Shown here: in pieces, positions 6,210 through 12,065 of the stretch
How the letters are laid out: each line of letters starts with the position of its first letter
Numbering within the stretch: position 1 is the stretch's first letter
Origin: a virus
IMG/VR virus record: IMGVR_UViG_3300030419_000605
Coordinates: 1 to 29,854 of that record
Direction: 5' to 3' (one strand)
DNA length: 29,854 nucleotides
Notes under the pieces: generated by a model
Told to the model about the DNA's origin: nothing
The model's database searches: none
The model's input: only the letters and a program-made list of their open reading frames with translations
Made by a program: the position numbers and the translations under genes

Positions 6210-6230
6210 TTATTATTATTATTATTATTA
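6210..6230. repeat. TTA trinucleotide run (7 copies)
   Basis: Seven perfect TTA units lie between the SSB gene and the next gene. The last unit is the SSB stop codon (TAA on the minus strand). It is a simple-sequence tract likely to vary in length between strains. Confidence 0.9.
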
Positions 6231-6692
6231 AAATTCTTCGCTGTCATCAAAGTCGCCACTAAGACCGTCATATTCAACAAGGTCAATGATTTTTACTTTG
6301 ACTAGATCAAGTCCTTGAAAGCGACCAAACTGATTCTCAACTTCCCACTCTCTGTATTTAACTAATACTCTTGAGCCATTACCTACAGTTAGATCAACTT
6401 GCTCTCCATTAGAATCAAAGAGTTTTGGTTTAACATTAGGTGTTCCGTCTTTACGACTTACTTTTCTTTTAATCATAACGGCTCTACCTTCGTAAGCATT
6501 AGAAGTCTTTGGGCTTCCGTCTTTTTTCTTAGCTGTTCCGTTAATGGTAGGGAATCCGTCTGCTTCTAAAGCATCTGCTACTGCATCATCAACGACCAGT
6601 TCAATCTGATAAACTGGTTCAAAGGTAGTGCTAGGAACAGTAATGTTTGCCCAATAAGCAATTCCTTCTACTGTTTTAATACTGTTATCCAT
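6228..6692 (-). CDS. Single-stranded DNA-binding protein (T7 gp2.5-like)
   Basis: 154 residues: a beta-rich OB-type body with a basic central part (TAKKKDGSPK, IKRKVSRKDG) and a C-terminal acidic tail DFDDSEEF ending in an aromatic residue. In T7 gp2.5 and bacterial SSB, such a tail recruits polymerase, helicase and nucleases. Its position just ahead of primase-helicase and polymerase fits the role of protecting single-stranded DNA at the fork. It has its own perfect-consensus promoter about 60 bp upstream, and a second one further upstream behind the candidate RNA. The SSB role rests on tail, composition and context; I do not see a diagnostic motif. Confidence 0.8.
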   Translation of the reverse strand: MDNSIKTVEGIAYWANITVPSTTFEPVYQIELVVDDAVADALEADGFPTINGTAKKKDGSPKTSNAYEGRAVMIKRKVSRKDGTPNVKPKLFDSNGEQVDLTVGNGSRVLVKYREWEVENQFGRFQGLDLVKVKIIDLVEYDGLSGDFDDSEEF

Positions 6693-6748
6693 AATTATAT
6701 ATTTACCTCTCTCTTTTATTTGTTTTAAGTTATAATAGATTAAGCGAC

Positions 6749-6777
6749 ATTATACCACATCTTGATACAAATGTCAA
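6749..6777 (-). promoter_or_regulatory. Consensus sigma70 promoter of the SSB operon
   Basis: On the minus strand, TTGACA at 6777-6772, a 17-bp spacer and TATAAT at 6754-6749, with a TGG extended -10 immediately before it. The expected start is near 6742, giving SSB a leader of about 50 nt. It lies just beyond the 3' end of the structured RNA candidate. Confidence 0.88.
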
Positions 6778-6794
6778 GTCTTTTTTTAAAGGTG

Positions 6795-6961
6795 GGATAA
6801 TAATAAAGGTATTGGTTTTTTGCGAATCATTAGAAAAACCAAAAAGAAAAACTAATCTGTTCAGGACAGCGCGGATCTTACCTCTATTTTGATGAGCAAA
6901 ACTAAGAAAGAATGTAGCAAGATTCCGCAGATTCTTTGTTATTGTTCTTTTATTATTATCC
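6795..6961 (-). ncRNA. Candidate structured non-coding RNA or SSB leader element, about 167 nt
   Basis: It starts at the predicted transcription start of a perfect promoter (7 nt after the -10). The first 13 nt (GGATAATAATAAA, 6961-6949) are exactly complementary to the last 13 nt (6807-6795), closing the whole element. Inside are P2, GCGGAATCTTGC with GTAAGATCCGC (11 pairs, one bulged A); P3 nested in it, TTTTG/CAAAA with a CTCAT loop; P4, CTGT/ACAG; and P5, TTGGTTTTT/AAAAACCAA (9 pairs). The P5 loop GATTCGCA can also pair with the 5' arm of P2 (TGCGGAATC, one bulge), so a pseudoknot or switch is possible. There is no clear terminator behind it, so it could be a free RNA after processing or the 5' leader of SSB mRNA. 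An open 77-codon frame across it has no ribosome binding site and runs through the next promoter. Confidence 0.6.
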
Positions 6962-6968
6962 ATTTATT

Positions 6969-12036: not shown

Positions 12037-12065
12037 ATTATACATACAAATATTCATTTTGTCAA
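12037..12065 (-). promoter_or_regulatory. Consensus sigma70 promoter, leftward half
   Basis: On the minus strand, TTGACA at 12065-12060, a 17-bp spacer and TATAAT at 12042-12037. The expected start is near 12030, producing a leader of about 600 nt across the origin region before the first gene at 11412. It is back to back with the rightward promoter, with 23 bp between the -35 boxes made of T and A tracts that resemble UP elements. Confidence 0.85.

Follow-up and report, generated by a model that had tools for sequence, protein, structure and literature searches.

H-type pseudoknots with U·A-U major-groove triples are known from the SAM-II and preQ1-II riboswitches and from telomerase RNA. 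HK022 put and the EAR-type RNAs are antitermination RNAs. To our knowledge, catalogues of structured RNAs cover pelagiphage-like viruses poorly. For a phage single-stranded DNA-binding protein (SSB), the well-studied case is gp32 of T4 and RB69, which binds a pseudoknot and an A/U-rich tract of its own mRNA; the T4 gene 32 pseudoknot is ~28 nt long and is found in the 5′ UTR, near the ribosome-binding site of the mRNA that it controls (PMC535899).

The locus described here is in a 29,854-base virus record, IMGVR_UViG_3300030419_000605, the whole of which was analysed and is called the window. The window encodes phage-like proteins, including a Cas4-type exonuclease, a DNA polymerase, a primase/helicase, a terminase and a portal. 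The terminase is 64–65% identical to those of Pelagibacter phages HTVC103P, HTVC104P and HTVC115P, which places the virus near the HTVC103P-type group, a group linked to SAR11 hosts (PMC8528129). The RNA stands ahead of an operon in the order SSB-primase-DNA polymerase, and the SSB 5′ UTR in the window is A/U-rich. A profile search with the SSB finds the T7 gp2.5 structure 1je5 (E 0.0049), an AlphaFold model (pLDDT 87) finds the same structure by Foldseek (E 3e-7), and 35 of 38 SSB relatives match the Gp2.5-like PHROG (phrog_112). Judged by these profile and model matches, the gene downstream of the RNA is a real SSB.

A preliminary description, made from the sequence alone, had proposed a structured RNA with its own perfect promoter, closed by a 13-bp stem with a distant arm and followed closely by a second perfect promoter. 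All of its elements are found, on the minus strand (Table 1), and an RNA with a promoter of its own is borne out by covariation across 16 distinct sequences. The arms of the closing helix, P0, are 141 nt apart; promoter P1 is placed to start transcription at 6961–6963 or nearby, at the first base of P0; and the −35 of promoter P2 lies 17 nt beyond the closing stem. The 11-pair stem with one bulge is the P2 hairpin, here 11–12 bp, and the 4-bp hairpin is P3. The perfect 9-bp hairpin needs revision: its stem is real, but belongs, as the second of two, to an H-type pseudoknot (S1, AUUAG/CUAAU; S2, UUGGUUUUU/AAAAACCAA) rather than a lone hairpin. Overlooked at that stage were the pseudoknot, a further likely helix, called a, and an open frame from the ATG at 6963. 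The pseudoknot pairings came from reading the relatives; a minimum-energy fold cannot show them. Folding of the window element is beyond chance: its minimum free energy is −36.8, dinucleotide shuffles give −24.8 ± 3.6 (z −3.3) and none of 200 shuffles folds as stably, and the z scores of the 16 distinct sequences range from −1.6 to −4.0.

Table 1. Features of the RNA locus in the window, and examples of a second RNA in other contigs.
Feature	Position	Strand	Remarks
Promoter P1	6969..6997	-	TTGACA-17-TATAAT; -35 at 6997-6992, -10 at 6974-6969
Structured RNA closed by P0	6795..6961	-	~165-167 nt; from folding and relatives
P0 5′ arm	6949..6961	-	GGATAATAATAAA; partner 6807-6795
P0 3′ arm	6795..6807	-	TTTATTATTATCC
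Helix a 5′ arm	6930..6934	-	GAATC; partner 6828-6824; moderate support
Helix a 3′ arm	6824..6828	-	GATTC
P2 hairpin	6871..6928	-	arms 6928-6917 / 6882-6871; basal pairs rewritten between groups
P3 hairpin	6857..6869	-	CTGTCCTGAACAG; CUAU/AUAG in the L009 group
Pseudoknot S1 5′ arm	6852..6856	-	ATTAG; partner 6833-6829
L1 loop	6843..6851	-	TTTTTCTTT; first five U invariant; putative third strand with S2
Pseudoknot S2 5′ arm	6834..6842	-	TTGGTTTTT; partner 6820-6812
Pseudoknot S1 3′ arm	6829..6833	-	CTAAT
S2 3′ arm and A-tract	6812..6821	-	AAAAAACCAA
Promoter P2	6749..6777	-	TTGACA-17-TATAAT; -35 starts at 6777; predicted own start for SSB
Overlapping 77-codon frame	6730..6963	-	ATG 6963, 5 nt past the P1 -10; without Shine-Dalgarno
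Shine-Dalgarno of SSB	6713-6706	-	GAGAGAGG
SSB, T7 gp2.5-like	6228..6692	-	profile and Foldseek match to 1je5; phrog_112
Second RNA, examples	L094 815-905; L098 1869-1952; L258 2124-2211		relatives L094-L107, L116, L258-L312

P1 and P2 are two of the six perfect (12/12) sigma-70 sites within the window. The others are a divergent pair at 12065 (−) and 12089 (+), probably the main early switch region, and single sites at 1190 (−) within the exonuclease gene and 16535 (+) within the terminase gene. The P1 spacer is nearly invariant among relatives, and when viral contigs were searched with the P1 pattern, all 18 matching contigs were carriers of this RNA. Promoter P2 is found in 16 of 16 distinct sequences, its −35 being TTGCAA in the L031 group. 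An inverted repeat within the P2 spacer, ACATCT...AGATGT in most relatives, is a candidate operator. Between the RNA element and SSB, no terminator-like site is found in the window, nor was a terminator seen after the element in three other sequence groups checked by eye. In the remaining two of the six groups, L013 and L031, the pseudoknot is followed by a U-tract or by an A/U hairpin with a run of U.

Carriers of the element, found via the SSB protein and a motif pattern, comprise 19 IMG/VR contigs and the window. They hold 16 distinct sequences in six sequence groups (represented by the window, L002, L003, L009, L013 and L031), and all 20 members belong to one phage lineage. Each contig has one strong copy, which always precedes SSB and is flanked by the two promoters; the gene 5′ of P1 varies between groups, as judged by eye. 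True members score 99–147 bits with the covariance model, so matches of 17–25 bits in SAR11 single-cell genomes are attributed to A/T-rich chance. Covariance matches on the element's opposite strand are shadows of its self-complementarity, and among the matches listed from a genome pattern scan, four chance-like places pass the pseudoknot filter, none of them in SAR11. The element was never found away from SSB in the covariance searches run. The closest isolates, HTVC103P, HTVC115P and HTVC033P, gave no convincing covariance match, and at E ≤ 1e-4 the element was not found in 197 genomes of the family of the Pelagibacteraceae genome G030, in a search run without a positive control.

Other noncoding stretches were also seen. 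In the cultured pelagiphage HTVC115P, SSB is preceded by a noncoding gap of 280 nt with promoters on its flanks (L049 3068-3345), which shows no sequence homology to the element and no significant folding (z −0.9). Just 5′ of P1, noncoding stretches in three contigs (L042 921-1440, L012 ~2450-2680, L031 1-220) carry tRNA-like acceptor and T-arm sequences with long inserts, in which ARAGORN and Rfam find nothing.

The preliminary description had recognised no known family, and the RNA matches none in Rfam. Three scans of Rfam 15, which includes 6S, SAM-II, preQ1-II and the Ocean and other marine families, gave no match on the element at lax thresholds (E up to 5 for the window, 1 and 2 for relatives), and a BLASTN search of 50,697 phage records with the element as query gave short chance matches only. 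The literature, searched in part, gave no description of the element and nothing usable on pelagiphage noncoding RNA or put RNA.

Compensatory changes in the stems, which the preliminary description had named as the thing to look for in homologues, are present. Over the 33 pairs examined, pairing is kept in 95.6% of cells; with partners slid the figure is 34–54%, a control that favours the structure because these very sequences were used to derive it. Double-change cells number 33, against 10.9 in shuffles. In a tighter core alignment, double-change cells and the covariation score are each reached by 0 of 500 shuffles, whereas the number of pairs that show a double change, six, is not unusual (156 of 500 shuffles attain it); such shuffle counts are not probabilities, as related sequences are not independent.

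The support is distributed among the helixes as follows. The outer pair of S1 is AU, UA or GC according to group, with 98.5% of cells paired and a score reached by 0 of 500 shuffles. S2 is paired in 99% of cells and hardly varies, 7 of its 9 pairs being invariant; it therefore rests on invariance and offers little test of covariation. The P2 hairpin largely keeps its pairing while its sequence is rewritten, with basal pairs GC/AU/UA/GU and CG/UA, and P3 shows a GC to AU change between groups. Four of the six groups, whose sequences differ, have a P0 far above shuffles (0–1 of 200); in the L009 and L031 groups it is weak. Helix a joins GAAUC, immediately 5′ of the P2 hairpin, to GAUUC, immediately 3′ of S1, and has the variants GAACU/GGUUC and GAGCC/GGCUC. 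Its pair types include CG/UA/UG and AU/GU/GC and 92% of its cells are paired, though one of the five pairs is often broken; support is moderate, since 5 of 500 shuffles reach its score. Helix a is probably a further helix, closing a four-way junction in which it and S1 may lie side by side. Neither the five U of L1 nor the A-tract of S2 varies, and within the pseudoknot the two run parallel. A U-rich L1 and an A-rich S2 strand in this topology are the marks of U·A-U triplex pseudoknots, and the U5 of L1 appears to be placed for U·A-U triples with S2.

A second pseudoknotted RNA was found, among more distant relatives of the SSB, in at least 38 marine phage contigs. Its pattern, GAGYCA...GCCCTC.ATCTCCATCC...GATGGGG...TGRCTC, has no evident sequence similarity to the first RNA and stands ahead of SSB, at a distance of ~150 nt, in 38 of the 59 matches; several of the remaining matches are GC-rich chance matches. 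The second RNA is closed by a stem and includes two covarying hairpins, along with a pseudoknot, CCAUC/GAUGG, that does not vary, with 96.9% of cells paired and 15 double-change cells against 3.2. No match was found to Rfam in the members scanned or to phage records by BLASTN. Many members have a terminator- or attenuator-like hairpin and U-run before SSB. Like the window element, the second RNA is conserved, pseudoknotted and positioned before a homologous SSB gene; it differs in having a three-way junction and another sequence, and no second promoter was seen before SSB.

What might the element do? We favour a folded leader or regulatory element acting in cis on the SSB-replication operon over a free, trans-acting RNA, with coding and origin readings well below; the preference is tentative. 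A cis leader is proposed to work as follows. RNA polymerase would start at P1, and the nascent RNA would fold into a compact four-way junction and a pseudoknot with U·A-U triples. P1 transcripts would read on into SSB-primase-DNA polymerase, and the fold that they carry would be bound in cis by a regulatory protein, the simplest candidate being SSB itself when it exceeds single-stranded DNA. Control would then be autogenous, as for T4 gene 32, and promoter P2 would supply a second, unleadered level of SSB mRNA. That SSB binds the fold and represses its own translation as gp32 does is proposed by analogy.

Three things suggest action on the SSB operon: the linkage to SSB, upstream neighbours that change, and a window in which no terminator is found. 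The cis role is ranked first because a second, unrelated pseudoknotted RNA at SSB makes a role tied to SSB likelier. Selection at the RNA level, as read from the alignments, also argues for a cis leader: compensatory changes are accompanied by suppressed synonymous change, with pS of 0.11–0.31 in the core and 0.33–0.74 in SSB. Against it, P2 sits between the RNA and SSB in every group. That is, SSB does not need the P1 transcript, and the element is within SSB mRNA only when P1 transcripts read through. In addition, the end of the pseudoknot is ~120 nt from the SSB AUG, farther than in T4, and the linkage to SSB may be simple synteny of close relatives.

The same intervening promoter, together with ends closed by P0, suggests an independent unit, and with it a free RNA, a possibility we hold in somewhat lower regard. 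Here the P1 unit, its ends joined by P0, would end or be processed before P2, and the structured RNA would act in trans, its target being host RNA polymerase, a nuclease, an mRNA or some component of the ribosome. The predicted start at the first base of P0, the maintenance of P0 by different sequences in most groups, the perfect promoter that SSB has right behind the element, and the U-tract or A/U hairpin and U-run of L013 and L031 all accord with such a unit. The absence of a terminator in the window and, by eye, in three other groups speaks against it, as do the failure to find the element apart from SSB and the negative search of the G030 family, itself run without a positive control. A private promoter on each side leans toward an independent unit; the strict linkage to SSB, and the fact that most groups lack a terminator, lean toward action in cis.

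A bolder, rather unlikely version is that the element represents a class of phage RNA that is new, built as a four-way junction locked by a triplex pseudoknot, stable and made from its own strong promoter, which senses the load of SSB or of single-stranded DNA. Helix a and S1 would fold back and the U·A-U triplex pseudoknot would lock the 3′ side; unrelated marine lineages would have evolved differing SSB-proximal RNAs for the same job.

The overlapping frame raises the prospect of a small leaderless protein gene of 62–92 aa, with the RNA folds incidental or secondary, which we consider improbable. The ATG exactly 5 nt after the P1 −10 and a frame open through the core are shared by 15 of 16 sequences, and, L013 apart, indels in the core come in multiples of three. 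The chance of the frame staying open under substitution alone is 0.13–0.73 per pair, so an open frame by itself is weak evidence. The core pN/pS is 0.65–1.93 (~1), with changes even across codon positions, as against 0.17–0.33 in the SSB genes of the same contigs, where most changes are at third positions; purifying selection on the amino acids of the frame is not seen. L013 has no such ATG and has stops in every frame, yet keeps the core helixes and P0. Furthermore, the C-termini diverge, compensatory pairs alter amino acids, and the frame has no match in PHROG or Pfam. Given a pN/pS of ~1 and a group that lost the frame and kept the helixes, the alignments indicate that selection holds the RNA, not a protein, and the 77-codon frame is probably not a selected protein. 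It may be translated as an unconstrained leaderless peptide, perhaps as a leaderless translated leader. The preliminary description had set a conserved frame, or the absence of compensation, against a structured RNA; the frame is indeed open in nearly all sequences, but the stems show compensation and selection at the protein level is lacking.

A transcript of a replication origin, in which the RNA or an R-loop primes or opens a phage origin beside the replication genes, seems very unlikely. Tandem promoters and A/T-rich DNA stand directly before SSB-primase-polymerase, and the logic parallels that known for the T7 primary origin. However, RNA conservation of a tertiary type is not expected of a primer, and the relatives HTVC103P and HTVC033P lack a match. 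The 6S-like closed duplex of the preliminary description, here taken as a mimic of an open promoter, is scarcely credible despite the length of ~165 nt and the end-closing stem, as the fold is a multibranched junction with a pseudoknot rather than a rod with a central bubble, and no 6S family of Rfam matches it.

The element offers a testable handle on how the level of SSB and replication is set in phages that apparently rely on host promoters. Evolution has kept its shape, not its letters, and it may regulate the genes with which the virus copies its DNA.

How, then, does the element compare with known systems? With HK022 put and EAR, compared via Rfam only, it shares the position of a folded RNA directly after an early phage promoter and ahead of an operon, but here the downstream operon also has a promoter without the element. 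With the U·A-U pseudoknots it shares, as a sequence pattern, the order S1-L1(U-rich)-S2-S1′-S2′ and an S2 A-tract parallel to L1; unlike SAM-II, preQ1-II and telomerase RNA, it has no Rfam match and no ligand gene context, it is within a four-way junction, and its triples are putative. The T4/RB69 gene 32 operator is matched in having a pseudoknot (here the S1 and S2 pairs) in RNA upstream of the start of a phage SSB, followed by an A/U-rich 5′ UTR. It differs in that the core here is ~125 nt and comes with a junction and P0, the RNA and SSB are separated by a promoter, and the SSB is of the gp2.5 type, not gp32. Two unrelated pseudoknotted RNAs before gp2.5-like SSBs would extend the lone well-studied precedent of T4 gp32 to abundant ocean viruses.
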